Virus record (IMG/VR): IMGVR_UViG_3300028044_000040
Coordinates: 1 to 32,019 of that record
Length of the DNA: 32,019 bases
Source: a virus
Direction: 5' to 3' (one strand)
Positions 1,455-26,480 of this stretch are shown piece by piece. The translations under genes and the position numbers were made by a program. Every line of letters starts with the position of its first letter. The stretch's first letter is position 1. Under the pieces are notes generated by a model, which ran no database searches, had not been told where the DNA came from, and saw only the letters and a list, made by a program, of their open reading frames with translations.

Positions 1455-1462
1455 TATTTATA
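1455..1462 (-). promoter_or_regulatory. T4-type late promoter box for gp25
   Basis: Exact TATAAATA on the minus strand, 5 nt (TATAT) before the GTG of gp25. A T4 late box centred near -10 would put the transcription start at the GTG itself. Confidence 0.75.
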
Positions 1463-1503
1463 TGGTTTTTATTGATTTAAAACCTATTTCCAGTACGCAG
1501 AAG

Positions 1504-1511
1504 AATAAATA
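1504..1511 (+). promoter_or_regulatory. Late promoter box for the gene at 1518
   Basis: AATAAATA on the plus strand, 6 nt before the ATG. It fits the NATAAATA form of the T4-like late box and is back to back with the gp25 box. Confidence 0.65.
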
Positions 1512-1517
1512 ATTTTA

Positions 1518-2138
1518 ATGAATCTCAAGTTCACTAAGCTATTTGAATCAGCCTTGCAAAGATATTCAAATACAGGGTTTCTGGCTGGTGATTTAGTTGT
1601 TTTTAAGGATAATGCTTTTAAGGACGAGTGGTACCTGAATGCTGGTACAAATACACAAGAAAAACTTAAACAAATGGCCACAGGCGGTCTAAATTTAAGA
1701 GTCTCTGCAGTTAAGAACAAATACCCAGCAGTAGGTGCAGCAGGTGACACAAGCTTTATTGGGTCAGAATCAGATGTTGATATTGTAGCAGAAATTGCGC
1801 CAGGTAGATACATGGATTTTGTTACTGTTCCAAGCAGACTTTTAGATACAAGAAGCAGCTATCCTAATTTGCCTGATGTTCCAGAGATTTTTAAGAAAGG
1901 CGATCCATCCAAGAGAGTAAATATCAAGCCTAAAAAAGTAAAAGATGAAAATCAGGAAGTCCCTTTCTATACACCACAGCAAACAAGACTTTCCGACATA
2001 GGCAATAAAAAGCTATCCAAGGGTGATAGAGAATTATTAAACAAAAATGTAAAGATACCTTCAACACCAGTTGCAACTCACAAAGATCCAGCTAGCTACA
2101 CTTACAATTATTTACCCAAGGGCCAATTTAAGCTCTGA
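1518..2138 (+). CDS. Unknown protein, probably virion-associated
   Basis: A 206-residue protein I do not recognise. It is basic and soluble, with no membrane segment. Residues 1-15 (MNLKFTKLFESALQRY region) form a short amphipathic helix-like segment resembling the N-termini of other plus-strand late genes here. A proline- and lysine-rich middle (about 105-165) looks extended. A late-promoter box 6 nt upstream suggests late expression and hence a structural or assembly role. The 3' end overlaps the convergent gp44 gene by 27 bases. Function unknown; a capsid-internal or packaged protein is one possibility. Confidence 0.7.
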   Translation: MNLKFTKLFESALQRYSNTGFLAGDLVVFKDNAFKDEWYLNAGTNTQEKLKQMATGGLNLRVSAVKNKYPAVGAAGDTSFIGSESDVDIVAEIAPGRYMDFVTVPSRLLDTRSSYPNLPDVPEIFKKGDPSKRVNIKPKKVKDENQEVPFYTPQQTRLSDIGNKKLSKGDRELLNKNVKIPSTPVATHKDPASYTYNYLPKGQFKL

Positions 2139-3050
2139 GAGTGCTATTAAGCAAGTGTAGCAATTAATTTCCTGATCAATCACAAAAGAACTTCTATACA
2201 GATATTCAGATATAGTTAAAAGATATTGTTTCTTAACATTAATATCATTTTCATTCTTGTCCACATAGTTGAATAAACCTCTTAGTAGAGAAACATAATC
2301 ATTATTGAAGGCAGATTCATTTTCGATGAGCGCCTTTCTGAGAGTGGTAACGTTTTTGCTTTTAATTTCATTAAATAACAACTGAAGAGTTTGATCACTA
2401 TCGGATATATCAAGGCTTAGTACCTGATTGACTGAGTATTTTTGAAGCTCATTAATAGTTTTTCTAAGATCTGGATAGTTAGATTTGATAAAAGACAACA
2501 AATGTTGCTTTTGATCAGCTGGTATTTCAATCTTTTCATTCTTAAGAATATGTACACATCTTTTTACTGCACCTTCCACTGGAGGTGTAAGATCAAAGCT
2601 TTGACACCGACTTTGTAGAGCATTTATAATTCTGTATTTGTAATTGGCAGTCAGAATAAACCGTGTAATGGATGAATACTCCTCCATGGTGTTGCGTAAA
2701 GCACGTTGTGCATCAATTGATAGACCGTCAGTTTCATCCAGAATAATCACCTTAATATCACCGTAAAGACTTTTAGATTGCGCAAAGCTGGTAACCTTGC
2801 TTCTTATGGTATCAATACCGTTTTCATCACTAGCATTAATGTAAAGATATTGTGATTTTAAGATGTCATTAACAATAATTTTAGCAAGTGATGTTTTACC
2901 AATACCTGGTGTGCCAACAAACAGCAAATTTGGTATATTTTTCTGTGTTTGTATTGTTTGAATAAACAATTTAATTTTATCGTTACAAATAAAATCTTCT
3001 ATGTTTTTAGGTCTGTATTTTTCAACCCACAAACTATTGAAAGTTAGCAT
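2112..3050 (-). CDS. 44: Sliding-clamp loader ATPase gp44-like
   Basis: A 312-residue AAA+ protein of the RFC/DnaX type (T4 gp44 has 319). Visible motifs: the N-terminal WVEKYRP box (8-14), Walker A GTPGIGKTS (46-54), Walker B IILDETD (102-108), sensor 1 LTAN (133-136) and the SRC arginine-finger motif (147-149). It would open the gp45 clamp and load it on primer-template DNA. The gene lies three bases after the dUTPase stop, among virion genes and about 24 kb from gp45. In T4, genes 45, 44 and 62 are adjacent. No gp62 partner is recognisable in this window. Its last 27 bases overlap the convergent gene at 1518. Confidence 0.95.
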   Translation of the reverse strand: MLTFNSLWVEKYRPKNIEDFICNDKIKLFIQTIQTQKNIPNLLFVGTPGIGKTSLAKIIVNDILKSQYLYINASDENGIDTIRSKVTSFAQSKSLYGDIKVIILDETDGLSIDAQRALRNTMEEYSSITRFILTANYKYRIINALQSRCQSFDLTPPVEGAVKRCVHILKNEKIEIPADQKQHLLSFIKSNYPDLRKTINELQKYSVNQVLSLDISDSDQTLQLLFNEIKSKNVTTLRKALIENESAFNNDYVSLLRGLFNYVDKNENDINVKKQYLLTISEYLYRSSFVIDQEINCYTCLIALSELKLALG

Positions 3051-3053
3051 TTA

Positions 3054-3571: not shown

Positions 3572-3579
3572 TATAAATA
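3572..3579 (+). promoter_or_regulatory. T4-type late promoter box for the gp16-like gene
   Basis: Exact TATAAATA, 5 nt (ATATT) before the ATG at 3585. It is the clearest plus-strand copy of the late box. Confidence 0.75.
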
Positions 3580-3584: not shown

Positions 3585-4073
3585 ATGAGTGAAGAACTTA
3601 ACGAAATGGTTGGTGATTTACTATCTCAACTTAAAGAGGTAAAGAAAGAAGCCGAAAAAAGCGAAAAAACGAGAGACGTTTTAACTAAAGAAAATTTAGA
3701 GAAATTTGTAATTGAAAATGCAGGCAGATTGGTATCAGAAAGCATGGAAATAGTTACTAATGTAAAAGATTATATAAGTTCTGCCCCAGAGAGTAAAGAT
3801 GTAGGTTCCATGTCAGAACTCATAGCTGCTACATCCACTGCACTTGAAACTTTGAATAAAATTATCATAAGTGACAAGAGAAATGAAACATTAGTGCAAG
3901 TAAAGGATATGGATATAAAGAGTAGGAAAGAAATAAAAGAGGCTGATAATAACAATAGATTATTAGCGACCAGAGAACAGGTTTTTAAAATGCTCATTGA
4001 AAGTGCTAATAAGAGTGCAAAAATAATTGATACAGAGATTGTGGAACTTGAAAATAAGAAAAAACAAGATTAA
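3585..4073 (+). CDS. 16: Probable small terminase subunit, gp16-like
   Basis: A 162-residue, largely helical, charged protein, very close in length to T4 gp16 (164). The middle (about residues 62-100) has the gp16-type layout: a helix, then SAPESKDVGSMSEL, then a threonine/leucine-rich helix ending NKIIISDKRNE. It parallels the T4 region where SPRHMEVFATLM is followed by TTTNREILKLHKD. Small terminase subunits form rings that recognise DNA and stimulate the gp17 ATPase. The assignment rests on pattern and size, not strong identity. An unrelated coiled-coil virion protein remains possible. It is 13 kb from gp17 and on the opposite strand, whereas T4 has 16 and 17 adjacent. The stop overlaps the convergent neighbour by 4 bases. 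Confidence 0.55.
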   Translation: MSEELNEMVGDLLSQLKEVKKEAEKSEKTRDVLTKENLEKFVIENAGRLVSESMEIVTNVKDYISSAPESKDVGSMSELIAATSTALETLNKIIISDKRNETLVQVKDMDIKSRKEIKEADNNNRLLATREQVFKMLIESANKSAKIIDTEIVELENKKKQD

Positions 4074-5797
4074 TTCTTGTTTTTATCACATTCAAAAAAC
4101 TTGCTAGAAAAATTCTTAAATAACTTGTTAAAGTCAAATAAATTAGTAAAGAATTTCTCTATATCGTTCCATAGTTTTTCAAATTTATTACCTATTTTCT
4201 TAAGCATATCTTCAATTCCATCAAAATCAAATGTTAATAATGCTGAGAAGTCTAAATCGCCTATTATAGGTAATTGGAAATTGCATACTAAATCTTTTAC
4301 CTGTTGAGCCAATTCCAGTACACCTAATGGGTTGCTTGCCAGATCTTTGAAATTGGTATTGGTAGCAATTGCAGCCAGTTGTGGGAATGATCCTAAGTCT
4401 ATTGATGGCAGAGATAGATCTATGAATGGAATTGAATTTAATGTGTTGGTTAAATTTGAAGCCATGCTTTCAATGGATTGTACAGCTTGTAGAGGATTTG
4501 CAAAGCTTATAGCATTAATATTTGAAGTATTTGATACATTTTGTACAAATCCGCCTAGTTCGCCAAATATGGAGGTAACAGGAGCAACCGCTTCATTGAA
4601 TGTATTAGATAAAAATGTTATCGATTCACCAATAAACGGTTGAGCTAACTGTAAAGCGCCACCTGTGCCCAATTTATCTGTAAGTGAGCTAACAAAAGAT
4701 AATTTATCATTCAATCCTAGTGTACTGTCTGTTAATTCTTGCTGTTTAGTTACTTTATTTTTTGGATTTCTCGAAACAAATTCAGGAAATTGCTGTTGGC
4801 TAGTTTGATTTAAAAAGGTATTGTTTATAGATTGTGTATCAGCTGGTTGATTGCTGTTTGTTAGTTTAGCTACACCAAGAACTTGCCTAATAGTAAAGTT
4901 TGAAATGCTTTCTCTGTACTTGTTTTGTAAGATATCTACAATTTGATCTCGACCTTCAACATTAATTGTATAAGAAAAATCGGGTGTTTTTTGAATATTG
5001 AAATTATCATAATCTCTTAAATTTAAACTAATGTCATCGTTTATATTTGAGTGGTATTTAATGTATTCATACCGGTCACCAAAGTATGTATTTAGCTCAG
5101 AAACATAATTTTGTATATTTTTCTTGAAATAATTAAAAAATACCAAGTCGTTTACAAGGTTCTGACCATGTGCAACACTAGAATCAACATATAAATTGCC
5201 ATTATATGTGCTCTTTTGAACTTGAACTAAGTTGTTTCTAAAAACTCTATTTGTAAAAATGCTTAATTCTGCGCTATTTTCTAGAACTGCTTTGCTTATT
5301 TTATTCTTTAAAGATGAAGGTAGAGTGGTAGAGAATCCTTTATCAGAATTTAGATCGCTCACAAGTAAAGTAGAGTCGTCACTGATAGTAGTTAAGTTGT
5401 ATAATGTTCCAACACTATCGCTCATAGGAGCAAAAAAATTCTGCTTATTATTAAGTTTTTCAAGCACTGCATTTTTAACTTCATCTACAGAACTATTGAA
5501 TTTTTTAATCCAGTAAACCTTAAAATCATGCTGCTGTGTTTTTAATTTTGAATCAAGCTCCACAAAGAAATCAATTAAGCTTTGAATGGGATTGGAGCTT
5601 TTTAATGCGTTTCTATAATCCATAGCTATGTCTATAGAATTGCCCATGTAATTTTCACCGGCTTTAAATCCTATTTGTTTTTTAAAATCAGTATATTTCT
5701 CTAAGAACTGTCTTGAATTTGTAATGTTACTATCAATTAATTCAGGAAACAGAGTTTTGACGTTAAATCTGTTATTAAGAGGTATATTGGTTATCAT
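4070..5797 (-). CDS. Unknown large structural protein of the baseplate cluster
   Basis: A 575-residue protein not recognised by family. The N-terminal half (about 1-310) is mixed, with many polar residues. A Gln/Asn/Ser-rich linker spans about 310-360. The C-terminal third has hydrophobic and glycine-containing repeats (FIGESITFLSN, IPFIDLSLPSIDLG) and ends in amphipathic Phe/Lys helices. No lysozyme or beta-helix spike repeats are evident. It starts by a TAATG overlap with the hub gene stop, so its translation is probably coupled. A possible weak Shine-Dalgarno (AGGAG) lies 11 nt upstream. Position next to a gp27-like hub suggests a hub, spike or fibre-attachment component. In T4 the corresponding partner would be gp5, but I see no sequence support for that. 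Confidence 0.6.
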   Translation of the reverse strand: MITNIPLNNRFNVKTLFPELIDSNITNSRQFLEKYTDFKKQIGFKAGENYMGNSIDIAMDYRNALKSSNPIQSLIDFFVELDSKLKTQQHDFKVYWIKKFNSSVDEVKNAVLEKLNNKQNFFAPMSDSVGTLYNLTTISDDSTLLVSDLNSDKGFSTTLPSSLKNKISKAVLENSAELSIFTNRVFRNNLVQVQKSTYNGNLYVDSSVAHGQNLVNDLVFFNYFKKNIQNYVSELNTYFGDRYEYIKYHSNINDDISLNLRDYDNFNIQKTPDFSYTINVEGRDQIVDILQNKYRESISNFTIRQVLGVAKLTNSNQPADTQSINNTFLNQTSQQQFPEFVSRNPKNKVTKQQELTDSTLGLNDKLSFVSSLTDKLGTGGALQLAQPFIGESITFLSNTFNEAVAPVTSIFGELGGFVQNVSNTSNINAISFANPLQAVQSIESMASNLTNTLNSIPFIDLSLPSIDLGSFPQLAAIATNTNFKDLASNPLGVLELAQQVKDLVCNFQLPIIGDLDFSALLTFDFDGIEDMLKKIGNKFEKLWNDIEKFFTNLFDFNKLFKNFSSKFFECDKNKN

Positions 5798-7383
5798 TAG
5801 ATACTATTCTCCTGTAAGAATACGTTACTTGAATTGTATGTCTTTACACATCTTAATTCATTTATGTATTCATTTTTTTCAAAAATATGCTTTACCTCAA
5901 TAACAAAATATACACCTAAAATTTTAGTATCAAAATCACTATCTGAAGTGCCACCATCTCTATCTATACCTATGAACGTACCTGCTTGTCTGTGAGTTGA
6001 ACCTGGTACTTTAAAATATACTATATTATTTAAAAAAATTGTATCAAATAATGCTTCGTTTCTACCCATGTTCAAGCGCTGCTCGGGATTATCGCTAAAA
6101 ATTGAAAAAATGTTATTAATATTTTTTTGACTAGTTCTAAGACTACCTGGAACAAAGTTTTTATATGGGCTTGTTTGACATACTCCTTTGAATGGCTTTA
6201 CATAATTATTTTCATAAGCTTCCATAACTTTTTGTATGCTATTATTAGAAAATTCAATATTAAAAGTCTTAGAGTCACCGTCATGGCTATGAACAATTTG
6301 TGAAGCAATGTGCTTTTGTGTGAGAATACCAGGCATAGGGTCATAAGAGAAATTATTTATAGTGCCGAAAGATTTAAAAAATAATGATTCGCTTGGAACA
6401 CGTGCAGAAACTTTTTTTATGTTGTACGTATTGTAGGAATCAGAATAATTACCTAACTTAAAAGTTTCTAGATACAAATCACCGCTATTTTCACTGGTAA
6501 AGCTACTTTGTTTTACTGCGTTTTTAAAATAATCTGAAAGACTTATCAACGAAAATTCACTTGTATATCTGTCGCATTCAAGTATACATCTATCATAATT
6601 ATTATCTTTTGATGAAACATGTCTGCTCATTAAATAGTTTAAACAATCTATGCCTTTATAATTAACAGGAGAAGAAAAAAAGATTTTTGTACTACCGGAT
6701 TCAAAATTATTACTAAATTTTATAGATAGATTTGCGTCTTTAAAAAACGTTGAAAGAAATGATTTTATAGCATCACCAGTAAAAACACTTCTGTCTTGAT
6801 TAGAAAGATCTTGAATTAACTCATTAGTTTCTAATAAGCTTGCTGTATTAAAATACGAGTTTTTATATTCCAATATATCGCTATGCAAACCTCTCAAATA
6901 AAGTTTTTTAAATTTTTTACCAGGCATATCTCCTAGTATTTCTTCTGTATTGTATATGGCCATGCTCAATCTTATTCTAAATACGTTGCTTTGCTTTGCG
7001 TTATCAAAATCATTCTTGAAGGGTGAGTCTTCCAGCTTGGGTATTATATCAATGTAAACAAAATCTCTTGAATCGCCTTTTAAAATAAACCCCCGATCAC
7101 TACTCTTGGTTTCGTTAAAATAGTCGCCAGTTAAATTACTGGCTGATTTATTCTGCTGATTGATATCAGCTACTCTTTCTAAGGAATCTAAATAATTGTT
7201 TAAAACTAAATAACCAGTATGTTCGATGTTATCAATATTATCTTGCAATACTAAAGTTTCTATTGCTCCTATTTGAACTTCCTGACTCCTACCATCAGCA
7301 TTTACAATTTGTACCTTAAAATAATAGGGACTCCTATCTATGACAGTATTAGGATTAACAGCATTTTCTTGATATATGCTCAT
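5797..7383 (-). CDS. 27: Baseplate hub protein, gp27-like
   Basis: A 528-residue protein resembling phage tail hub proteins (the gp27/gpD type that form a trimer under the tail tube). The N-terminus reads as a beta-rich start (PYYFKVQIV, VQIGAIETLVLQDN), and a conserved-looking C-terminal block (about 440-525) contains NIVYFKVPGS, RQAGTFIGIDR and LGVYFVIEVKHIF. That last block matches the usual closing beta-strand region of hub domains ('...Y.V..V.H.F'). The T4 protein has 391 residues, so this one carries extra domains. It overlaps the upstream gene by 4 bases (ATGA) and the downstream one by TAATG, marking one operon. Confidence 0.65.
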   Translation of the reverse strand: MSIYQENAVNPNTVIDRSPYYFKVQIVNADGRSQEVQIGAIETLVLQDNIDNIEHTGYLVLNNYLDSLERVADINQQNKSASNLTGDYFNETKSSDRGFILKGDSRDFVYIDIIPKLEDSPFKNDFDNAKQSNVFRIRLSMAIYNTEEILGDMPGKKFKKLYLRGLHSDILEYKNSYFNTASLLETNELIQDLSNQDRSVFTGDAIKSFLSTFFKDANLSIKFSNNFESGSTKIFFSSPVNYKGIDCLNYLMSRHVSSKDNNYDRCILECDRYTSEFSLISLSDYFKNAVKQSSFTSENSGDLYLETFKLGNYSDSYNTYNIKKVSARVPSESLFFKSFGTINNFSYDPMPGILTQKHIASQIVHSHDGDSKTFNIEFSNNSIQKVMEAYENNYVKPFKGVCQTSPYKNFVPGSLRTSQKNINNIFSIFSDNPEQRLNMGRNEALFDTIFLNNIVYFKVPGSTHRQAGTFIGIDRDGGTSDSDFDTKILGVYFVIEVKHIFEKNEYINELRCVKTYNSSNVFLQENSI

Positions 7384-7751
7384 AAACGTTTGATAGAATT
7401 TTGTATTTCTCTTAATACAAGATTTACATAATCAGGTTTTATTATTTTTACTATCATTCCTCTTTCAGGAAATTTTACCGGATTTCTTATTTTATTCAAC
7501 ATGCATATTAACCACCATAAATGAATAGTTTTATATGCATTATAGCTAACTGTTGTCCAAGGCATTTTATCAGTAATAGTTATATAGACTAAAGCATTTT
7601 TATCAATGTCATCAGGAAAGCTTATGCTCTGAATTAAGTTGTAAACATAGCTACGTTTTTCTTTGTTCTCATAAAGTTTAAATATGTTCTCATACCTAAT
7701 GCTGTCTAAGCTGGGCAAAAAAGGTATATTGTTTTGATGTTTGCCATCCAT
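7380..7751 (-). CDS. 53: Small baseplate protein, gp53/LysM-like
   Basis: A 123-residue protein whose centre, PWTTVSYNAYKTIHLWWLIC (65-84) followed by LNKIRNP and FPERGMIVKI, has the LysM/gpX-like tail pattern: a Y-x-A-Y turn, a W-W-x-I-x-x-x-N core and a G-x-x-I-x-I/V-P strand. The same signature occurs in baseplate wedge gp53-type and P2 X-type proteins. In T4, gp53 is a wedge subunit joining wedges into the ring. The gene is shorter than T4 gp53 (196), so only the LysM-like part is present. AATAAATA lies 5 nt before the ATG, so the gene can start its own late transcript leading into the hub gene. Confidence 0.6.
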   Translation of the reverse strand: MDGKHQNNIPFLPSLDSIRYENIFKLYENKEKRSYVYNLIQSISFPDDIDKNALVYITITDKMPWTTVSYNAYKTIHLWWLICMLNKIRNPVKFPERGMIVKIIKPDYVNLVLREIQNSIKRL

Positions 7752-7756: not shown

Positions 7757-7764
7757 TATTTATT
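7757..7764 (-). promoter_or_regulatory. Late promoter box for the gp53-like gene
   Basis: AATAAATA on the minus strand, 5 nt (TACAT) before the ATG at 7751. Confidence 0.65.
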
Positions 7765-7768: not shown

Positions 7769-9073
7769 TTATTGATTAGTAAGTGATTGTGCTCTATCAA
7801 GTATGCCTTCAAGTGCTGTGTTAAATGCAGGGTTAGTTTCATCACGTAGCAATGTTCTTGTTGTTACTATACTTGATTCATCTAGAACATTATACATAGT
7901 GTTTTTTGTATCAGCAATCAAACCTTTTACTGTTATTCTGATTACATAAGCATCAGGAACAATGGCTCTTACAGGTATGAATTTGTTTTGTGATGTGACA
8001 AGGGATGGTGTAGCAGGTCCCACAAATGCAGGGCTCTGAGGCTCATCTACCCTTAAGTTACCCACAGTTGCCAAGTTAAAATTCAACTCTCTTCTGGAAC
8101 CTTGAAATTCCACACTGATGGAAGATATATAAGCATATGGCATAAACTTTACACCGGGAATTCTTATTTCATAAATTACCGGGGGTTCAACTATAGAGCT
8201 ATTCTTTCTTGCAGGTTTGTTGTTATACATTAATAAAAACAACAATTGCCAATTTTTTACCACATCATTGAATGTTGCCGATCCAGTATTAATTAAGGGA
8301 AAGTTAAAACTTATTTCTTCTCCTTCAGAAGAGTAATTAAAGAATTTAGCCTGTTCTACAAATGAAATCTTTGTTGGGGCATTGATTACAGAGGTCATTT
8401 CTTGAACGCCTCTAACAAGATCCACTCCGCTTTTCAAAAGACCCAGAAAAGGGTTTGATGCGTCATTGGAGAAACTGCTATTAGATGAGCCACTGTAGTT
8501 ATCAAAATAAGGCAAGTTAAATACCCAACCTGTTGGCTTGGTTATATACAAGTTTTTATATGGGAACAAGTAATTGCTTTTGTTTGCATTTAGGGTAGTA
8601 TTTTCATCTGCAACACCTGGTATTGTATCTAAAGCGGCTTTGATATATCTATCTGTAAATTCTGCCGCTTGTCCAACTTTATTTTGTATATCTTGTGAGT
8701 TGTTGTTAGTAACTAAATTTAATAAATTTCTTGCTGTTTCATTATTTTCCAGATTCGTTAATCCTTCCCTTACGTTTTGTGATGCAACACCGTAGGTGTA
8801 TTTGAGTTGCGCTACTAATGCATTTGTCTTGAGTCTTAGCTCTCTTAATATGATTCTGGGTACTTCTTGCCTTGAATCAGTCAATTTTGAATAAGTCCAA
8901 TAAAAATCTTTAACTACATCAACCACGCCCCCCTGGGGACTGTCTGAAGATGCTGCAATTAATCCACCACCAATAGGTGTATTGTTTGTGGATACCAGTT
9001 GTGGTGGATTAGTATCACTATCAAAGTTTAACTCCGATTCATTTCTATCAATAGATATGGAAAATAAACTCAT
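7769..9073 (-). CDS. Tail-tube cap/baseplate protein, possibly gp48-like
   Basis: A 434-residue structural protein. The N-terminal half is low in recognisable features. The C-terminal half (about 230-390) has a tube-protein-like course: SFNFPLINTG, a helix NWQLLFLLMY, then PPVIYEIRIPG, YAYISSISVEFQG and IVPDAYVIRITVKGL. This recalls gp48-type tube-cap proteins, in which a helix precedes '...P..Y.I...' strands and a closing 'P.A..V.I...L' strand. Placement directly after the tape measure agrees with T4 order 29-48-54. The start is TAATG-coupled to the tape measure stop and preceded by AAGG 4 nt upstream, a plausible Shine-Dalgarno. A different baseplate component is possible. Confidence 0.5.
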   Translation of the reverse strand: MSLFSISIDRNESELNFDSDTNPPQLVSTNNTPIGGGLIAASSDSPQGGVVDVVKDFYWTYSKLTDSRQEVPRIILRELRLKTNALVAQLKYTYGVASQNVREGLTNLENNETARNLLNLVTNNNSQDIQNKVGQAAEFTDRYIKAALDTIPGVADENTTLNANKSNYLFPYKNLYITKPTGWVFNLPYFDNYSGSSNSSFSNDASNPFLGLLKSGVDLVRGVQEMTSVINAPTKISFVEQAKFFNYSSEGEEISFNFPLINTGSATFNDVVKNWQLLFLLMYNNKPARKNSSIVEPPVIYEIRIPGVKFMPYAYISSISVEFQGSRRELNFNLATVGNLRVDEPQSPAFVGPATPSLVTSQNKFIPVRAIVPDAYVIRITVKGLIADTKNTMYNVLDESSIVTTRTLLRDETNPAFNTALEGILDRAQSLTNQ

Positions 9074-11115
9074 TATACCTTGCCCCCTGCAAACCTTGAT
9101 CTGATATCAAGACTTGAAGAATTTGTACCAGCAAAATTCATATTTGCTGATTGATTCATAACACTAATTACCCCGGGTTTTGCAAGGCCGGGCAAATTAA
9201 CCATGGCTGTTAATAATGCTACCATTTGTTCTTGTAATGAAATTTCCTTTGTAGAATTAATAGCAGTTGTTTTAATTCCTTTTGCAACTTCTTCATCTTT
9301 AACTAAGGGTGGTTTCTCTTCTTCTTTGGGTGCTGATTTAGGAGCTGCGGTTTCCTGTGTTTTTAATCGATTGTATGGGCTAAATTTTTCATTTTCAGCG
9401 TCTTCAAGAGCATGTTGTCTCTTTTTTTTCATTCTATCATTTAATACATCCCGCTCTTTTTGTAATGCTTTAATCTGCTCATCTGTAGGCTGGGTTAATT
9501 TAGCAGCACCTGCCCCAATACCATACCCCGCACTGCCTCCTAATAGACCCCAGATAAAAGCTCTTTCATTTGCACCTGCTGTATTTCCTGTTATTCGTGA
9601 ACCTGCGTAGGATGCACTTGCTGCAGCAGTACCACCAAGTACAGCTGTTGTTAATCCCATTTTCGCCTCTCTCCTTTTTGGATTTTTTACATCATCAAGA
9701 CGACTTTGCATTTCTTGTAATTTTTTTTCGTCTTTTTCTCTCTCATCAACATTAAGATTTGGGAGACCTTTGGGATTCAAATTATAAACTCTTTCAGGGC
9801 TATATTGTTTACCTGAAAGATCCAGATTATTAAAAAATTTAAATTTTTCAAAAATATTGCCACCTTGAGGTGCATCTTTGAATTGATCTATAAGACTCCT
9901 AACCACTCTCAGTCCTTGTGCAAGGCCAGGTGCATATTTTTCTAAAACAGCAAGACCTTTAAATATTTTTGATTCATCATCGCTAAAAACATTCATAATA
10001 GCTTCAAAAATATTAAATACCGTTTTTAATGCAGCGTTTATTTTTTCGCTTATGGATTTTACAATTTCATTAAAAACATCTCCTATATTCATCTCAAGAC
10101 CTGATTCAGGTACTCCGAAGCTTACATTTTTACCTGCCGCTTCCATTTTTATACCTGCAAATCCAAAAGCTCTGTCTGTAAACATTTTCATGAAATTAGT
10201 AACACCACGCACAGCAGGAAAATAGTTACCAATATTATCTAAAACTGAAATAATATCATTTTTATTTGCACCGCTGCCCTTGGTAACTAAGGAATATAAA
10301 TCAACAAACGATTTAGATATGTTATTAAAAAAATCTCCTATTTGACTGAAGAAAGGTGCTGGGAATTCAGTAATTTTTTTAAAAATATCTTCAAAAGTAA
10401 ATTGTTTTCCAAACATATTAAATTGCCTGCTCTTGTCACCGGTCAGATCGCCAGCTAATAATCTAGCTTTTGATGTACCAAAGAAGTCTGCAATAAATTC
10501 CGCTCCTGGAATAGCAAAAGCCAATTGCTTGATTCCTTTTGTAAAATCGCCTTGGAAGATACTAGTGAACCCTTCATAAGCATCTATGAGTCTGCCTACA
10601 AACGGTATGGATCGTATCATTTCTTTTAAGCTCTTGTCTTTACCTGCAAATTTCTGCAGTAAACTGGTTACACTGGATAGTATTTTGCCTTGTTTAAATT
10701 CTTCGAACATCTTTTTAAATGCAGGAAATTTGGTCAAACCAAAAGCTAATGTAGCTACACCACCTAACAGTAGGCCGATGGGACCCAGAATACTGGACAT
10801 GAATCCCTTGTCTTTTTGACGCAATCCTCTGAACTCTTTTAAAATGGCTTCATTGGTTTTAGATTGATCTAATTTACCTATTAACTGTTTAGTATCTTTT
10901 GTGAATCTTACTTCTTTTGGCTCTTTGTCTCTTTTAGCTTTTTTTTGCTCTTCTGTTTGATATACAGTAAAGAACTCACCTATTTTATCAAATTTCTTAC
11001 CTAACGTAATTTGTATTTTTTCTAATGTATCTGATACTCTCTTGTTACTTTGCTCTATAGAGGTAAAGCCAGATCCCATAATAGAGGACATCTGTTCAAA
11101 GGTAATACCATCCAT
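9073..11115 (-). CDS. 29: Tape measure protein (gp29-like)
   Basis: A 680-residue, mostly helical protein, the longest of the tail block apart from the sheath. It has a charged coiled-coil-like N-terminus, a hydrophobic glycine-rich segment at about 109-127 (GPIGLLLGGVATLAFGL region), repeated Phe-rich amphipathic helices through 130-430, a second glycine/alanine-rich hydrophobic segment near 540-565, and a Lys/Glu/Pro linker before the end. This is the usual build of tape measures, which set tail length and are later ejected. At 1.5 angstrom per residue it predicts a tail of about 100 nm, like T4 (gp29, 590 residues). The ATG is preceded by CATAAATA 6 nt upstream. It follows two chaperone-like genes, as tape measures often do. 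Confidence 0.75.
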   Translation of the reverse strand: MDGITFEQMSSIMGSGFTSIEQSNKRVSDTLEKIQITLGKKFDKIGEFFTVYQTEEQKKAKRDKEPKEVRFTKDTKQLIGKLDQSKTNEAILKEFRGLRQKDKGFMSSILGPIGLLLGGVATLAFGLTKFPAFKKMFEEFKQGKILSSVTSLLQKFAGKDKSLKEMIRSIPFVGRLIDAYEGFTSIFQGDFTKGIKQLAFAIPGAEFIADFFGTSKARLLAGDLTGDKSRQFNMFGKQFTFEDIFKKITEFPAPFFSQIGDFFNNISKSFVDLYSLVTKGSGANKNDIISVLDNIGNYFPAVRGVTNFMKMFTDRAFGFAGIKMEAAGKNVSFGVPESGLEMNIGDVFNEIVKSISEKINAALKTVFNIFEAIMNVFSDDESKIFKGLAVLEKYAPGLAQGLRVVRSLIDQFKDAPQGGNIFEKFKFFNNLDLSGKQYSPERVYNLNPKGLPNLNVDEREKDEKKLQEMQSRLDDVKNPKRREAKMGLTTAVLGGTAAASASYAGSRITGNTAGANERAFIWGLLGGSAGYGIGAGAAKLTQPTDEQIKALQKERDVLNDRMKKKRQHALEDAENEKFSPYNRLKTQETAAPKSAPKEEEKPPLVKDEEVAKGIKTTAINSTKEISLQEQMVALLTAMVNLPGLAKPGVISVMNQSANMNFAGTNSSSLDIRSRFAGGKV

Positions 11116-11121: not shown

Positions 11122-11129
11122 TATTTATG
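11122..11129 (-). promoter_or_regulatory. Late promoter box for the tape measure gene
   Basis: CATAAATA on the minus strand, 6 nt (TTTAGT) before the ATG at 11115. Confidence 0.6.
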
Positions 11130-16550: not shown

Positions 16551-16558
16551 TATTTATT
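16551..16558 (-). promoter_or_regulatory. Late promoter box for gp18
   Basis: AATAAATA on the minus strand, 6 nt (ATTTAT) before the ATG at 16544. Confidence 0.65.
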
Positions 16559-18904: not shown

Positions 18905-18912
18905 ATTAAATA
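18905..18912 (+). promoter_or_regulatory. Late promoter box for the gene at 18919
   Basis: ATTAAATA on the plus strand, 6 nt (CTTAAT) before the ATG. It lies in the 20-base gap between the divergent gp17 gene and this one. Confidence 0.55.
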
Positions 18913-18918: not shown

Positions 18919-19833
18919 ATGAACCAGACAAGAACACTAATAGAAATGGGTAACTTCTATGAAAATAACATTATAGAAGAAAAGAAGTCAATGTTTCCAC
19001 CCAGGGGCACCTTCAAGAGTGTGAATAAAAAAGAGCCCACAGAGGCAGAAGCTGACAAGAATGCTTTTGTTAAGAACACTGGTCCAGAGAATGCTGACGG
19101 GTTTAGAGACAATTTAATTGATACAAAAGTGAAGAGTAAGAAAGAAAATCTCTATCAACCAGAAAAATTCTCACAAAATTATGAAAAAACAGAAGTTAAA
19201 ACAATAAATAATTTTATGAGCAAATCTATTTTTGACAAATTGTATGAGGATGTAATGTCCGATCAGGCCAAAGACACTGAAGCAGTTGATGCTGCAGCTC
19301 TTGGCTTGCCTTCAGTTGATTCAGGTAATGATTCAGGTGAAGAAAGTGAAGTAAGTTTTACACTGCCCCGTGACATTGCACATAAATTGTGTGATGCATT
19401 AAAAGCTGTTCTCGATACAGAAGAGGAAGCTGGCGATGAAGAGGGCATGGGTGGTGAAGAGAATGGCGCTAGCGAAGATGGACAGTTTGCTCCTTCAGAA
19501 GATGCCGAAGCAAAGGCAAAGAAGAAGCATGAGCAAGAAGAAGATGAAGATAATGAAGGTGTTGCAAAGGAGGCTACTGAGCTCAAGGAACTTCCTGCTT
19601 CTGCTGGTCACGGACTACAGAAGAAAGACAACAAAGTCGGTGATGTTACAAAATCATTAACTTCCAGTGGTGCAGGTGATGCAAAAGTTACTGATAAAGT
19701 TGGCAATGATGGTGAAAAAGGCCATGCTTTAGTTGGTGGTGGAATCAAAGGTGCTAATGCTTACACAGGCAAGAGCAACAAAGTGGATTCAAAGACATCA
19801 AAAGTTGGATCATACCTTGCCGGTTTAAAATAA
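18919..19833 (+). CDS. Acidic virion or scaffold-like protein of unknown family
   Basis: A 304-residue protein with strongly skewed composition. The first 100 residues are charged and look disordered. Residues 100-165 contain two helices (MSKSIFDKLYEDVM and LPRDIAHKLCDALKAVLD). Residues 166-220 form an acidic tract rich in Glu, Asp and Gly, and the end is Gly/Lys/Ser-rich. The acidic, low-complexity build resembles phage core/scaffold or internal proteins, but no family is recognised. A second possible start is the Met at residue 100. Late box 6 nt upstream and an intrinsic terminator 20 bases after the stop make this a self-contained late unit. Confidence 0.7.
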   Translation: MNQTRTLIEMGNFYENNIIEEKKSMFPPRGTFKSVNKKEPTEAEADKNAFVKNTGPENADGFRDNLIDTKVKSKKENLYQPEKFSQNYEKTEVKTINNFMSKSIFDKLYEDVMSDQAKDTEAVDAAALGLPSVDSGNDSGEESEVSFTLPRDIAHKLCDALKAVLDTEEEAGDEEGMGGEENGASEDGQFAPSEDAEAKAKKKHEQEEDEDNEGVAKEATELKELPASAGHGLQKKDNKVGDVTKSLTSSGAGDAKVTDKVGNDGEKGHALVGGGIKGANAYTGKSNKVDSKTSKVGSYLAGLK

Positions 19834-19890: not shown

Positions 19891-19898
19891 CTTAAATA
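19891..19898 (+). promoter_or_regulatory. Late promoter box for the gene at 19904
   Basis: CTTAAATA on the plus strand, 5 nt (TCTAC) before the ATG, immediately after the terminator T tract. Confidence 0.55.
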
Positions 19899-19903: not shown

Positions 19904-20227
19904 ATGGCTGAGTCCTTTTTAAAATTTTTCGAAAAGTATGGAGTGGAGCATAGACACATGAAAGATGTCATACCTGATCCTATATCACATCCACAAACCC
20001 CAGGTAAAACAGTTCCAGATTACGTAAGAACTAAAGTTAAAAATCAAAAAGTACAAACATTGATGAACCAGGATAGTGGCAAACAAATTCTAAACATTCA
20101 GGATATTCAACAAATTCAAAAAGAGTATAACTTGGAATTTGATCCACAAAATCCAAAAAAGCTTGGTAATACAGGCATTGTCTTAAAGTTTGATCCAATT
20201 TTTAGGAAAGCTATAATAGAAAAATGA
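19904..20227 (+). CDS. Unknown small protein upstream of gp14
   Basis: A 107-residue soluble protein with no recognised family. It begins with an amphipathic segment (SFLKFFEKYG, 3-12) similar to other plus-strand late proteins here, followed by a proline-rich stretch (DPISHPQTPG) and a Gln/Lys-rich helix, ending in a short strand-rich part. It overlaps the gp14 start by 4 bases (ATGA), so translation is probably coupled, and it likely acts with the neck or head. In T4 this position holds gp13, but the sizes differ greatly (309) and I see no similarity. Confidence 0.7.
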   Translation: MAESFLKFFEKYGVEHRHMKDVIPDPISHPQTPGKTVPDYVRTKVKNQKVQTLMNQDSGKQILNIQDIQQIQKEYNLEFDPQNPKKLGNTGIVLKFDPIFRKAIIEK

Positions 20228-22360: not shown

Positions 22361-22723
22361 CTATTTGTTACCACTGATTAATGTTTTTATTATGTTTTGT
22401 ATGACTGTGAGTTTTTTGATAGCGGAAATTATATAAGTCTTGGCATCATCATTAAATTTAATATTTGGATTGTTTAAAGCTTGCTTGAAGAGTTCCACTG
22501 AATTAGAAGAGTTTACATACAGATCACCAAGCTGGTTTATAACGTTTCTAAGAGGGTAAGGCAAATCATTACCTGCTTTGACAGCACCTGGTATTTGCGG
22601 GTTTTTATTGGTGTCAAAAATGTCATTCAGGGAAACGCGTTGAGTTGAGAGGTCTCTTGATGCTATACCGCTTACCCATTTGTTATATTGCATTACTTCA
22701 TCAAACAAAAGAGTATGTTTCAC
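22361..22723 (-). CDS. Unknown late protein, GTG start
   Basis: A protein of 120 residues if begun at the GTG at 22723. The frame is open further (to 22864), but that extension runs antisense into the plus-strand gene at 22758 and reads as low-complexity alanine/serine. ATTAAATA with a 5-nt spacer fixes GTG 22723 as the likely start; an ATG at 22693 is the alternative. The product is mixed, with VSLNDIFDTNKNPQIPG and a helical C-terminus (KTYIISAIKKLTVIQNIIKTL). It shows no recognised family; late expression suggests a virion role. Confidence 0.62.
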   Translation of the reverse strand: MKHTLLFDEVMQYNKWVSGIASRDLSTQRVSLNDIFDTNKNPQIPGAVKAGNDLPYPLRNVINQLGDLYVNSSNSVELFKQALNNPNIKFNDDAKTYIISAIKKLTVIQNIIKTLISGNK

Positions 22724-22728: not shown

Positions 22729-22736
22729 TATTTAAT
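22729..22736 (-). promoter_or_regulatory. Late promoter box for the gene at 22723
   Basis: ATTAAATA on the minus strand, 5 nt (ATTAT) before the GTG. Together with the box at 22745 it fills the 34-base gap between two divergent genes. Confidence 0.55.
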
Positions 22737-22744: not shown

Positions 22745-22752
22745 AATAAATA
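22745..22752 (+). promoter_or_regulatory. Late promoter box for the gene at 22758
   Basis: AATAAATA on the plus strand, 5 nt (ATGTT) before the ATG at 22758. Confidence 0.65.
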
Positions 22753-22757: not shown

Positions 22758-23174
22758 ATGAGTCTTTTTAATAAAGTTTTTGATACAGTGCTTGAAGCCG
22801 GTGAAAATACAGATGACACTGCTGCAGCAGCAGTAGCAGCCCCACAAAATGATAGAGCTGCCATGGCGCAGACTTTAAAAAATTCTGCACCTGAAGACTA
22901 TGATATCAAAGGCCGAGAGACGGTTGTTGATCAAAATAAGCAACATCAATTACAATCATTAAAAGGTTGGATTGAGCAAATAGACGTGTTTATTAAGTTT
23001 CTAAATGGCACAGATTCAGATTCTATTCAAGTGCAGCTGCATGCTGCTCCATGTGATTCAATATTTGAAGACATGGCCAGAAGTGAGAAAAAGAAGATTG
23101 CCAGATTAGCCGCAGAATTAAGTTCATTGAGCGAATCAATGAAGGGATACTTAATTTCTGCTAATGACAGATAA
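22758..23174 (+). CDS. Unknown small virion-like protein
   Basis: A 138-residue protein starting MSLFNKVFDTVLEAG, then an acidic/alanine-rich stretch (DDTAAAAVAAP) and a helical remainder (QLQSLKGWIEQIDVFIKFLN; KKKIARLAAELSSLSESMKG). The start recalls T4 internal proteins, whose N-terminal capsid-targeting peptide is removed after a small-x-Glu site before Ala or Gly; VLE-A at residues 11-14 would be such a site, though this is speculative. It is a single-gene plus-strand unit with its own late box. The 3' end overlaps the primase gene by 24 bases on the other strand. Confidence 0.66.
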   Translation: MSLFNKVFDTVLEAGENTDDTAAAAVAAPQNDRAAMAQTLKNSAPEDYDIKGRETVVDQNKQHQLQSLKGWIEQIDVFIKFLNGTDSDSIQVQLHAAPCDSIFEDMARSEKKKIARLAAELSSLSESMKGYLISANDR

Positions 23175-24194
23175 TAATAATTTTGCTTTGATTCCGCTGT
23201 AGGAATTTTCAACAAAATAGCTTGGATCCACTGAATCTATTTTTTTATCTACTACCAGATCATTAATATCCTTATATTTTTTGCCGTCATTTTCAGGCCA
23301 TATGAATACAGTTTCACCATTTTGTATGAGCTTCTCAGTTTTGTTTCTACTGGCACTATCTTTATATTGACTATCAAGAACCCAGATGCGCTTGTGGAAT
23401 TTAAATGAATTCAGCTGACTCTCTTGTAATGCGGAAAACATTGTGTGGCTATTCTCCTGAATTCCTGAAATTGCAGTGCCATTGCGCACAAAAAATGCAT
23501 CAATTGGGCCTTCAAAAATAAAGATATATTCTAAATCCGCATTTATGTTGTTAATGTTATACAGAGATTTTTCACCATTTATTTTGCTCAGATATTTGGG
23601 ATACAACCTCAGATCTTTATCATAAATAATTCTTGATTGATAGAAAATGACTTCATTTTCCTCATTATAAAAAGGTATTATGATTCTGTTCTTATGAACT
23701 CTATCATTTAATGATAAAAACAAAGATTTAGGTCTATTGATAGCGGTAATCATTCTTCTCTTCTCTAACAAGTGCAGTGCATCATTAACTGTCTTATTGT
23801 TGTTATAGTAATTAATCTGCATTTTATCGAACAGATCAATTGATTCAAGTGGCAGTCTCTCCACTTTAATAGGTTTTTGAATATCGCTTCTCTTGTCGTC
23901 CGTTAACGCTTCAAGAGGCAGAATCTCATAATTTTTCGATTCATTAATTATTTCAACAAAAGTAAGTCCGGAGACCTCTTGCACCCACTTGACAGTATCA
24001 CCATACCAACCGCAATTATGACAGCAAATCTTATTATCATCTACCAAATAAATGCATCTGCGTTTCTTGTTCCACGATTTTCCTTCTCTGCATATTGGAC
24101 AACCTGCCATGTATGTGTTACTAAATTTTTTAAATTTAGGGTAGCCAGCATACTGATAGAATTTTTGTACAATATATTCTTGGGGTATAACCAC
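23151..24194 (-). CDS. 61: DNA primase gp61-like
   Basis: A 347-residue primase (T4 gp61 has 342). An N-terminal zinc-binding domain has CPIC at 32-35 and CHNC at 58-61, followed by the WYGDTVKWV segment typical of DnaG-type zinc domains. A TOPRIM-like catalytic core follows: IFIFEGPIDAFF (Glu228, Asp232), IWVLDSQ (Asp274) and KDINDLV (308-314). It makes primers for lagging-strand synthesis as partner of the gp41 helicase encoded at 29727. The start is GTG at 24194, the only sensible start before the zinc domain. A promoter TTGAAT-N16-TATAAT ends 6 nt upstream. Confidence 0.92.
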   Translation of the reverse strand: MVIPQEYIVQKFYQYAGYPKFKKFSNTYMAGCPICREGKSWNKKRRCIYLVDDNKICCHNCGWYGDTVKWVQEVSGLTFVEIINESKNYEILPLEALTDDKRSDIQKPIKVERLPLESIDLFDKMQINYYNNNKTVNDALHLLEKRRMITAINRPKSLFLSLNDRVHKNRIIIPFYNEENEVIFYQSRIIYDKDLRLYPKYLSKINGEKSLYNINNINADLEYIFIFEGPIDAFFVRNGTAISGIQENSHTMFSALQESQLNSFKFHKRIWVLDSQYKDSASRNKTEKLIQNGETVFIWPENDGKKYKDINDLVVDKKIDSVDPSYFVENSYSGIKAKLLLSVISRN

Positions 24195-24200: not shown

Positions 24201-24228
24201 ATTATAAGTTATTTCTTTGGAGATTCAA
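24201..24228 (-). promoter_or_regulatory. Sigma-70-like promoter for primase
   Basis: TATAAT (24201-24206), 16-nt spacer, TTGAAT (24223-24228). The -10 ends 6 nt before the GTG, inside the end of the upstream small gene. Confidence 0.6.
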
Positions 24229-24395: not shown

Positions 24396-24605
24396 TTAAA
24401 CCTTTCTCAAGGCTGCGGAAAGCTTCTTTTTAAAATCCTCTGTAAACTTTGCAACATATGAATCAAGCGCAGTGTTTGCAGCCTCAACACCTTTGCTATT
24501 GATAATATTTTGAATAGCATTTACATCGCAAAAAACTGTAAATGATTCCACATCCTTGTTTTTATCTTTCTCAGACCTAAAAGTTGTTTCAATAATTAAA
24601 TTCAT
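24396..24605 (-). CDS. Small unknown late protein
   Basis: A 69-residue protein: one strand (NLIIETTFRS), a strand VESFTVFCDV, then helices (AIQNIINSKGVEAANTALDSY and FTEDFKKKLSAALRK). No family recognised. It stands out because it lies among replication genes yet has an exact TATAAATA box 5 nt before its ATG, one of only three exact copies in the window. With the 61-residue gene downstream it forms a small late unit inside an otherwise early region. Confidence 0.62.
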   Translation of the reverse strand: MNLIIETTFRSEKDKNKDVESFTVFCDVNAIQNIINSKGVEAANTALDSYVAKFTEDFKKKLSAALRKV

Positions 24606-24610
24606 AGAAC

Positions 24611-24618
24611 TATTTATA
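24611..24618 (-). promoter_or_regulatory. T4-type late promoter box within the replication cluster
   Basis: Exact TATAAATA on the minus strand, 5 nt (GTTCT) before the ATG at 24605. Confidence 0.7.
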
Positions 24619-24627
24619 CCACCTTAA

Positions 24628-24909
24628 TTATTTATCAATAGTCTTATTTGCTTTGTACTGTTTTTGACATATATTATAGATGTCTTTAGGTAGCTTATTG
24701 ACGACATCCAGTATCTTTTCTTTTAATCCAGTATCAAATTTCTCAATAGGCACCTGTCTGATTTGCATGGCTGGTAGTGATAAAAAATAATACTCTGTAT
24801 CTTGTTGTTCCATAAAAACAAACATTTCGCCCAAGTATTTACCTCCGCAAACAGCATATACATGACGCGCACGAGGATGTTTACCTAAAAAACTAAAAAG
24901 TTTTTTCAT
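24628..24909 (-). CDS. Small unknown protein
   Basis: A protein of 93 residues from the ATG at 24909, unrecognised; a longer frame from an ATG at 24945 would overlap the epimerase gene by 53 bases. I prefer the inner start, MKKLFSFLGKHPRAR, because the overlap is then 17 bases. Strands HVYAVCGGKYLGEMFVFME and TEYYFLSLPAMQIRQVP are followed by a basic helical end. It lies between the epimerase and two small genes and is likely expressed with the epimerase. Function unknown. Confidence 0.58.
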   Translation of the reverse strand: MKKLFSFLGKHPRARHVYAVCGGKYLGEMFVFMEQQDTEYYFLSLPAMQIRQVPIEKFDTGLKEKILDVVNKLPKDIYNICQKQYKANKTIDK

Positions 24910-25777
24910 GGGAAAGTTTCTCAATACTAGATAGCAGTGTTTCATGCACCGGTGGCAAATCCAAATCGAGATCAGCTATTTTTTTGGTGGATAATACACA
25001 ATTGGAACGATTTGCTTTTAGTTGTAAGTTTTCAATATCTACAAATTTCCAATTTTTATTGATAATGTTATTTTTTGAAAGTAACTGAACTATCTCCTTT
25101 GCATCAATTCCACCTGGGTTGACCACATTGTATATATCAGGGTTTGTCTTGTAAAATTCGTGAACTATGAATTTATTAATAAAGACTGACAAATCATCAA
25201 GAGATGTTAAGCTGTTTTTAAATGATATGAGATTATCATAGTTTATAATTTTATTAATGATATTGCGTTCAGAAGAATATGAGCAGAATGGCATACGTAT
25301 TCTGAGGATTGACGAATTTGTCTTTGTATAAAGCATTTCAGCAAGATGTTTTGTTTTAGAATAAAAACTGCTAGCATTGGAATACATTCCAAAATTCGGA
25401 ACGTCATCTTCTGTGTAGTCTTTCTCGTAACCACTGTAAATACACCCACTTGACACATTGATGAGATAGTGTTTATATTTTTGGCAGAAGTTGCTCAAAA
25501 AAATAGGTAATTTAGTATTGTATTCCACACAAATTTCTTTGTTTAACTCACATGCATCAACATTGGGTCTGCCTGTGTATCCAGAGCAATTAATAAACAC
25601 AATGTCATTCTCTGGATAACAATGAAGCTCTCTTAGAAATTTTTTTAATGCAATTTCATTAAAATAGTCAACTTCTTTCCTATCAACTATGACTGTATGA
25701 AGATTGAACCATTTTTTAAAATGATTGAAAATATGGTTGCCGACAAAGCCTTTGCCAAGAATTATTATGTTTTTCAC
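24893..25777 (-). CDS. NAD(P)-dependent sugar epimerase/reductase (extended SDR, RmlD-like)
   Basis: A 294-residue extended short-chain dehydrogenase. The Rossmann motif is GKGFVG (8-13), FINCSGYTGRPNVDACE lies at 62-77, the Ser109/Ser110 pair in NVSSGCIYSG provides the catalytic Ser region, and Y-S-K-T-K (139-143) is the YxxxK pair. The closest general match is the dTDP-4-dehydrorhamnose reductase/UDP-sugar epimerase group. It would act on a nucleotide sugar, perhaps to modify host surface glycan, phage DNA or virion glycans. Substrate cannot be told from sequence. The start is GTG at 25777, in the foot of a 19-base inverted repeat. It is an auxiliary metabolic gene inserted among replication genes. 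Confidence 0.85.
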   Translation of the reverse strand: MKNIIILGKGFVGNHIFNHFKKWFNLHTVIVDRKEVDYFNEIALKKFLRELHCYPENDIVFINCSGYTGRPNVDACELNKEICVEYNTKLPIFLSNFCQKYKHYLINVSSGCIYSGYEKDYTEDDVPNFGMYSNASSFYSKTKHLAEMLYTKTNSSILRIRMPFCSYSSERNIINKIINYDNLISFKNSLTSLDDLSVFINKFIVHEFYKTNPDIYNVVNPGGIDAKEIVQLLSKNNIINKNWKFVDIENLQLKANRSNCVLSTKKIADLDLDLPPVHETLLSSIEKLSHEKTF

Positions 25778-25795
25778 TAATATAGTTTATATTAG
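25777..25795. repeat. 19-base inverted repeat at the epimerase start
   Basis: CTAATATA, GTT, TATATTAG (plus strand): a perfect 8-3-8 dyad whose edge touches the GTG start at 25777. In the mRNA it would form a hairpin closing on the start codon; as DNA it could be an operator. Five T follow on the plus strand, but no plus-strand gene ends here. Confidence 0.45.
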
Positions 25796-25798
25796 TTT

Positions 25799-26131
25799 TT
25801 ATAAATCTCCACGATCATCATCTCTCTCGCGTGTGCTGTATATAAATTTGTTAATCAGTGTGCCAAGAGAATCAGCTTCTTGCTGATTATGAGCAAAAAT
25901 AGTTTGCACAGGTTCGCCATCACAATTGTATCCCAGAAGAATAAAACTATTTAAATATTCCGATATTGTAGAATTTAGTGCATCTAAATCTTTTTTCAAA
26001 GCGGTTTTGTTAGTTATCTCTTCTTTTAAAAAGTTAATTAACGCTTTGTGAGTGAGCTCTTTAACCTCTTTGTTCTCATTTGGGTTAAAGTTGTTTAGAT
26101 TGCTATCAGGAGGATTGCTTTTGCTCATCAT
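25799..26131 (-). CDS. Small unknown protein
   Basis: A 110-residue, charged, soluble protein: a disordered Asn/Pro-rich start, a long helix (about 25-65, LTHKALINFLKEEI ... LDALNSTISEYLN) and a short end (FILLGYNCDGEPVQTIF ... DSLGTLINKFIY). The compact helix-turn-strand pattern recurs in small T4-like phage proteins of unknown role. Two consecutive Met codons open the gene. AATAAATA lies 3 nt before the first and 6 nt before the second, so the second Met fits the rule seen elsewhere. It overlaps the upstream gene by 26 bases. Confidence 0.62.
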   Translation of the reverse strand: MMSKSNPPDSNLNNFNPNENKEVKELTHKALINFLKEEITNKTALKKDLDALNSTISEYLNSFILLGYNCDGEPVQTIFAHNQQEADSLGTLINKFIYSTRERDDDRGDL

Positions 26132-26480
26132 ATTTATTTATTCTCTGACGAAGATATCTGATGCGTCCTGGATAATCAACATTATTAGATACACCGCTTT
26201 TTAATAAAAAGTTAATGATTACTTCTATGCTATCAGTTGCTATGTAGAAATTCTTTTGAATGCGTCTACCTCCATCATTCATTTCAAATAAAACTTCATT
26301 TATATTGCTTTTATTGAAATAGCATGTTATGAAGACTGAAGCTTCAGTTGGATTAACTATAATAGTCCACTGACGTGGATCAGATTTAGCATACACATTA
26401 AAAACCTTCAAAACAACAAAACCATTGTCTTTAAGACGTTTTATGAAATAACTGGGTGTTCTTAATTTATTTTTACTCAT
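26106..26480 (-). CDS. Unknown protein downstream of the sliding clamp
   Basis: A 124-residue basic protein: a helix (PSYFIKRLKDNGFVVLKVF), a W-containing strand region (RQWTIIVNPTEASVFITCYF) and a second alpha/beta part (NFYIATDSIEVIINFLLKSG), ending in a basic tail with RIRYLRQRINK. TAATG coupling to the clamp gene suggests a replication-linked job, possibly nucleic-acid binding. T4 RegA has similar length and lies in the same gene cluster, but no RegA residues match by eye. Unknown. Confidence 0.62.
   Translation of the reverse strand: MSKNKLRTPSYFIKRLKDNGFVVLKVFNVYAKSDPRQWTIIVNPTEASVFITCYFNKSNINEVLFEMNDGGRRIQKNFYIATDSIEVIINFLLKSGVSNNVDYPGRIRYLRQRINKYDEQKQSS
26135..26142 (-). promoter_or_regulatory. 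Late promoter box for the gene at 26131
   Basis: AATAAATA on the minus strand; 3 nt before the first ATG and 6 nt before the second. Lies in the 3' end of the upstream gene. Confidence 0.45.

Follow-up and report, generated by a model that had tools for sequence, protein, structure and literature searches.

Bacteriophage T4, whose late mRNAs have leaders with Shine-Dalgarno (SD) sites, serves as the model for the timing of phage gene expression. The TATA box of T4 late promoters is located about one helical turn upstream of the transcription start, and its first two bases are numbered −13/−12 (PMC2988020). A TAAATA core is shared by the late promoters of T4 (late sigma factor gp55, co-activator gp33, and the PCNA-like sliding clamp gp45 as activator) and the NATAAATA late boxes of S-PM2-type cyanophages (PMC2988020, PMC2984593). 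Here we analyzed a fragment of a T4-like myovirus, positions 1 to 32,019 of IMG/VR record IMGVR_UViG_3300028044_000040 (32,019 nucleotides [nt]; this whole stretch is called the window), in which boxes with the same core lie 5 or 6 nt before start codons, where the predicted transcription start falls on the start codon. The likeness to T4-type systems includes an AT-rich downstream stretch, the lack of a −35 element, a gp55 homologue with T4 core motifs, a clamp with a predicted PCNA fold, and the same structural gene classes.

The gene types identified in the window are clamp loader gp44, tail sheath gp18, tail tubes, terminase gp17, primase gp61, helicase gp41, and SSB gp32. The best matches of its terminase among annotated phages are at most 38% identical, and the closest isolates are distant; about 150 relatives of the window are present in IMG/VR. 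Eight large contigs of 94 to 162 kb were taken whole as relatives, seven with the leaderless pattern described below and one (G004) as an outgroup. The relatives in the counts are not independent of one another, and all SD figures are motif counts. Gene starts were called by a simple longest-open-reading-frame caller, so some are wrong; such errors would blur a spacing peak but should not create one.

Late boxes at a fixed distance from start codons

The first-pass annotation of the window had listed 15 genes with a TAAATA box 5 or 6 nt before the start codon, and all 15 boxes lie where it placed them. The spacing from box to start is 5 nt in nine cases and 6 nt in five; in the fifteenth it is 3 nt to the first ATG of the gene and 6 nt to the second. 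Ten of the 15 match NATAAATA. TAAATA is not enriched as such (65 copies in the window, with 64.4 expected). When only the positions 5 or 6 nt before a start were counted, it was present at 15 of 40 starts, compared with a mean of 0.20 (maximum of 4 in 2,000) in dinucleotide shuffles, the control that the annotation had proposed, and with an expectation of 0.26 calculated from the remaining positions of the regions upstream of these starts. Among internal ATGs of the window, 1 of 559 has the box at this distance.

GTG starts assigned with the help of the box proved to open real frames. ATGTG is the sequence at both 1449 and 22723, but its ATG is in another frame that soon ends (as ATG-TGA at 22723), and in both cases only the GTG at 5 nt opens the gene. 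Across the seven relatives and the window, GTG starts account for 49 of 159 genes at spacing 5 and 3 of 75 at spacing 6, which is only partly explained. Twelve of the 49 GTG genes read ATGTG, and in 9 of these the ATG is followed directly by a stop, which would be a dead end for a leadered mRNA and would be avoided by an mRNA starting on the G. Leaderless-type starts are ATG or GTG, with TTG in 1 of 299, and the base before the start codon is T in 61 to 71%, both expected if RNA polymerase has to start on a purine.

Conservation of box and spacing among relatives

The late box at 5 or 6 nt is a property of a large clade of uncultured phages and not a quirk of one fragment. Of 18 large relatives, 17 have more copies of TAAATA-N5-ATG than of the reversed control, and the spacing distribution in the seven relatives and the window has a sharp peak at 5 and 6. 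Pooled terminase relatives have 155 genes at spacing 5, 107 at spacing 6, and 31 or fewer at any other spacing. The seven relatives and the window contain 234 late-box genes, of which only 2 overlap the preceding gene and 34% are divergent from it. SD motifs were found in 1.7% of these 234 genes, in agreement with the earlier observation that no SD site fits between box and start.

In most orthologs of the 15 box genes, the box is kept at 5 or 6 nt; at the control spacing of 15/16 it is hardly ever present. For the tail genes on the minus strand, the box at 14241 to 14246 (6 nt before the ATG of tail tube gene 13686-14234) is kept in 63 of 79 orthologs and that at 16551 to 16556 (6 nt before the ATG of tail sheath gene 14247-16544) in 46 of 57. 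The minus-strand boxes at 13665 to 13670 and 22729 to 22734, each 5 nt before a GTG (genes 12751-13659 and 22361-22723), are kept in 41 of 44 and 28 of 30 orthologs, respectively. On the plus strand, the box at 18907 to 18912, 6 nt before the ATG of gene 18919-19833, is kept in 36 of 43 orthologs; those at 19893 to 19898 and 22747 to 22752, each 5 nt before an ATG (genes 19904-20227 and 22758-23174), are kept in 15 of 15 and 24 of 37. The box at 26135 to 26140 (−), 6 nt before the second ATG (26128) of gene 25799-26131, is kept in 8 of 10. The other boxes are at 1455 to 1460 (−), 5 nt before the GTG of baseplate wedge gene 967-1449; 1506 to 1511 (+), 6 nt before the ATG of gene 1518-2138; 3574 to 3579 (+), with the sequence TATAAATA, 5 nt before the ATG of gene 3585-4073; 7757 to 7762 (−), 5 nt before the ATG of baseplate wedge-like gene 7380-7751; 11122 to 11127 (−), 6 nt before the ATG of gene 9073-11115; 12748 to 12753 (−), 5 nt before the GTG of gene 11909-12742, of the baseplate hub assembly type; and 24611 to 24616 (−), again TATAAATA, 5 nt before the ATG of gene 24396-24605.

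Tail sheath loci of 58 relatives were compared. In 43 the box lies at 5 or 6 nt, and none of these has an SD motif; 5 loci have no box, and all 5 have a strong SD; in the other 10 the box lies at 11 to 19 nt.

Sigma70-type promoters before replication genes

The first-pass annotation missed a second promoter, of sigma70 type, which occupies the same position in genes without a late box; its reading was thus incomplete, since early genes share the arrangement. Upstream of these genes, TTGATT lies 28 nt and TATAAT 6 nt away from the start codon. Over the seven relatives and the window, TTGAnn-N16-18-TAnnnT was found at spacing 6 in 71 genes and at any other spacing in 11 or fewer, and the spacer between the two hexamers is nearly always 16 nt. 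Genes with TATAAT at 5 to 7 nt have a −35 TTGA in 55% of cases and an SD in none, whereas only 6% of late-box genes have the TTGA, and no −35 element is conserved there.

Four such promoters precede replication genes on the minus strand of the window: TTGAAT-N16-TATAAT at 24201 to 24228, 6 nt before the GTG of the primase gene 23151-24194 (kept in 28 of 37 orthologs); TTGATT-N17-TATAAT at 27217 to 27245, 5 nt before the ATG of the sliding clamp gene 26480-27211 (15 of 22); TTGATT-N16-TATTAT at 28530 to 28557, 6 nt before the ATG of the SSB gene 27660-28523 (13 of 18); and TTGAAA-N16-TATAAT at 31056 to 31083, 6 nt before the ATG of the helicase gene 29727-31049 (5 of 6). Orthologs keep the promoter class: late genes have the late box, while in primase, clamp, SSB, and helicase genes the sigma70 promoter is mostly present and the late box always absent. 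Among operon-first genes, 274 of 447 (61%) have a late or sigma70 signature, compared with 17 to 43 when the motifs were shifted as a control, and an SD-like motif is present in 15 of the 447.

Late transcription factors

Homologs of gp55 and gp33 had been proposed as a check on the late-promoter assignment, and the outcome was divided: every one of the 10 relatives tested has gp55, and no gp33 was identified. The gp55 late sigma factor matched PHROG 234 with E values of about 1e-25 to 1e-29 and carries T4 core motifs. One window gene next to the SSB gene (27246-27656) was considered as gp33 and was not supported, having no family match and no clear likeness. The window product of 26480 to 27211 (−) is predicted by structural modeling to be a PCNA-fold sliding clamp of the gp45 type (AlphaFold pLDDT, 90; Foldseek match to PCNA, E value of 1e-13). 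PHROG and Pfam searches for gp45 gave no match in this clamp or in relatives because the profiles are too narrow; a cyanophage also stayed silent in them, and the fold search identified the window clamp.

Transcription start predicted on the start codon

Late promoters with a predicted transcription start on the start codon, as first proposed for the window, remain the best reading: the box and its position are conserved in relatives, SD motifs are missing, gp55 is encoded by all relatives tested, and the clamp gene is in the window. With the first bases at −13/−12 (PMC2988020), the 8-base box would span −13 to −6, so that +1 would coincide with the first base of the start codon when the spacing is 5 nt. 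For a sigma70 promoter whose −10 hexamer occupies −12 to −7, +1 would likewise fall on the start codon.

We infer transcription start sites from these positions and propose the following model. The TAAATA boxes would form the core of late promoters of the T4 type, recognized by host RNA polymerase that carries the phage sigma factor gp55 and is assisted by the sliding clamp, and late transcription would start at the first base of the start codon or no more than 1 base from it. Late mRNAs, having neither leader nor SD site, would be translated through recognition of the 5'-terminal start codon. Host-type sigma70 promoters (TTGAnn-N16-TATAAT) 6 nt before replication genes would make early mRNAs leaderless too, so that, judged from promoter position, both early and late transcripts are predicted to be leaderless. 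Operon-internal genes would be reached via overlap with the preceding gene or via an occasional SD site. To this explanation as a whole, with late gp55-type and early sigma70 promoters placed on the start codon and leaderless mRNAs from both, we assign a probability of roughly 85%.

Several observations weigh against it. The gp55 gene is located outside the window, which is a fragment, and was seen in relatives only; gp33 is missing from the set of factors identified. At spacing 6 the T4 rule gives a start 1 base upstream, and a one-base leader is possible there. The boxes of two of the 15 genes are mostly absent from orthologs, being kept in only 2 of 32 for the gene starting at 12742 and 7 of 28 for that starting at 7751. 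Neither signature was found in 173 of the 447 operon-first genes, for which wrong start calls, weak promoters, or leadered mRNAs are the candidate causes. In a sister subclade (L050, L051, L052, and L055), several starts are preceded by TAAATA at 9 nt instead of 5 or 6 nt, an arrangement suggestive of a 3- to 4-nt leader; a side peak at spacing 9 in the pooled terminase relatives partly reflects this real spacing. When a diverged box at 5 or 6 nt was sought in the subclades without TAAATA there, one proved to have TAAATA at 9 nt, and the others had no clear motif.

Three other explanations were weighed. In the first, the promoters are real, but most protein is made from longer polycistronic read-through mRNAs, and leaderless translation is minor. 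It is true that many late genes share a strand and are separated by short gaps, and that genes within an operon have no dedicated promoter yet need to be translated. However, the 34% of box genes that are divergent from the preceding gene receive no read-through from there, sheath genes without a box have a strong SD while those with the box have none, as if the box had replaced the SD, and the AUG-stop that precedes several GTG starts would be detrimental in a read-through mRNA. We regard this explanation as improbable.

In the second, TAAATA is a translation signal rather than a promoter, an A/U-rich Kozak-like leader element in a host that does not use SD sites, as in Bacteroidetes. The region before the start codon is AT-rich, SD motifs are rare, and the phage encodes bS21, a protein that in Bacteroidetes helps to hide the anti-SD (PMC9976891). 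This explanation fares slightly worse and is very improbable: late genes have the box, whereas replication genes have TATAAT plus a −35 hexamer in the same place, and a −35 element would lie outside the mRNA. In addition, overlapping internal genes lack the box (2 of 234), and the box equals the T4 late promoter in phages whose relatives encode gp55. The early promoters are of the TTGA/TATAAT type, which is not that of Bacteroidetes.

The third explanation, that TAAATA is common in AT-rich DNA and aligned with starts by coincidence or by starts chosen to fit, is refuted: although the window total is at the chance level, enrichment at one position is greater than 50-fold with mechanically chosen starts, the spacing recurs in relatives and is conserved at orthologs, and T4, with 35% GC, has no box at 5 or 6 nt.

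If promoters placed on the start codon are confirmed, a widespread aquatic clade would have the most extensive leaderless program in a phage known to us. Transcription start sites and start codons would become predictable from sequence, and gene starts could be corrected.

Ribosomal protein bS21 and tRNAs

The window encodes ribosomal protein bS21 at 29192 to 29401 (−) (Pfam PF01165, 44.2 bits, with a cut-off of 27). The gene is also present in six of the seven leaderless relatives (G001, G002, G003, G005, G006, and G007), between the helicase and SSB genes; it overlaps the preceding gene and has no leaderless promoter. The bS21 of Pelagibacter phage HTVC008M enters Escherichia coli ribosomes (PMC6375957). 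A link between bS21 and leaderless translation is speculative, a guess at this stage. In its fullest form, both promoter classes would give leaderless mRNAs and phage bS21 would make host ribosomes prefer 5'-terminal starts over SD-leadered host mRNAs, a translation takeover by mRNA architecture; we consider this extension doubtful. Leaderless mRNAs in this clade would nevertheless offer a natural setting for asking what phage-encoded bS21 does.

An initiator tRNA was considered as a component and rejected: the tRNAs with a CAT anticodon in three relatives resemble tRNA-Ile2, and the initiator-like one was seen once only, in L156. That tRNA (L156:14018-14094, +) has a CAT anticodon and, by eye, an initiator-like body, but its anticodon stem lacks the three G-C pairs; the tRNA gene adjoins a tmRNA gene. 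tmRNA (Rfam RF00023, 87 to 120 bits) was found in three large relatives, at L164:282-688 (−), L200:19055-19495 (+), and L156:14109-14520 (+), and the predicted tag peptides are unusually long in two of the three.

Host and other features

The model predicts a host that translates leaderless mRNA well. Scans of a bacterial and archaeal genome collection with the terminase and IMPDH found no relative. SAR11 is not favored because its phage HTVC008M has SD motifs in about half of its genes and lacks leaderless early promoters. Bacteroidetes was considered because of bS21; the early promoters here are of the TTGA/TATAAT type instead.

The clamp loader of the gp44 type is encoded at 2112 to 3050 (−) (PHROG 168, E value of 6.5e-81). 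Two tail-tube paralogs, both PHROG 45, lie on either side of the sheath gene, at 13686-14234 and 16586-17188 (−). Two large late-region genes at 4070-7383 (−), encoding 575 and 528 amino acids, have no PHROG match. Within the replication region are genes for an RmlD-like sugar reductase (24893-25777, −) and a glycosyltransferase-like protein (31080-31754, −). Among the relatives, L156 has a group I intron at 10870-11106 (−) (RF00028, 70.9 bits), and G003 (L174, L175, and L176) encodes QueC, QueF, a QueD-like PTPS, GTP cyclohydrolase I, and an IMPDH-like protein, a queuosine-type pathway whose gene content suggests 7-deazaguanine modification of DNA or tRNA.

Comparison with known systems

A T4-type TATA box with the TAAATA core (TATAAATA and NATAAATA) is present in the window and its relatives. 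The usual T4 leader, with an SD site between box and start, was not found here, although this trait is not strictly defining. The first-pass annotation called the arrangement unusual for T4, and the T4 control bears this out: 0 of 111 T4 genes have the box at 5 or 6 nt and 17 have it at 14 to 32 nt, 15 of the 17 with an SD. Cyanophage P-HM1 boxes lie about 20 to 25 nt before the start, compared with 5 or 6 nt here; P-HM1 and two marine single-cell viruses have none at 5 or 6 nt, with boxes mostly at 20 to 30 nt, and phiM9 also has none at 5 or 6 nt. The outgroup G004 has SD motifs in about 40% of its genes and no spacing peak.

Among the pelagimyophages (PMC7029224), HTVC008M is T4-like and encodes gp55 and bS21, as do phages of the window clade. 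In HTVC008M, about ten genes have TAAATA at 5 or 6 nt from the ATG, a partial form of the arrangement, and its clade is mixed, with 26 genes at 5 or 6 nt (3 with an SD) and 72 at 14 to 32 nt (63 with an SD). HTVC008M is unlike the window clade in its frequent SD motifs and in its early promoters. In a terminase tree, HTVC008M grouped with P-HM1 and T4, apart from the window clade, although long branches meet there; the 5- or 6-nt boxes of the two groups may have arisen independently. Prediction of late promoters by the authors who described HTVC008M was unsuccessful (PMC7029224), a failure that boxes placed next to the start codon may explain. Because HTVC008M is cultured on "Candidatus Pelagibacter ubique," part of our reading is testable.

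The mRNA of lambda cI transcribed from PRM is leaderless and begins at its AUG. The likeness is a phage mRNA beginning at AUG, which is predicted here; cI, however, is an isolated gene, whereas the signature described here is on 61% of the first genes of transcription units. Leaderless genes also occur in Actinobacteria, Deinococcus, and other bacteria. Those of mycobacteria have been described (PMC7148126), and bacterial leaderless genes share with the phage genes a −10 hexamer about 6 nt before ATG or GTG and the lack of an SD. They are cellular and use host sigma factors, whereas the arrangement here is in a phage and covers early genes plus genes assigned to a phage-specific late sigma factor. 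Searches of an open-access library that lacks most subscription journals found no account of leaderless late mRNAs in T4-like phages, and placement of early and late promoters on the start codon does not seem to have been described for these phages. What is new relative to T4, lambda, and the bacterial examples is the joining of a T4-type transcription system to promoters placed on the start codon.

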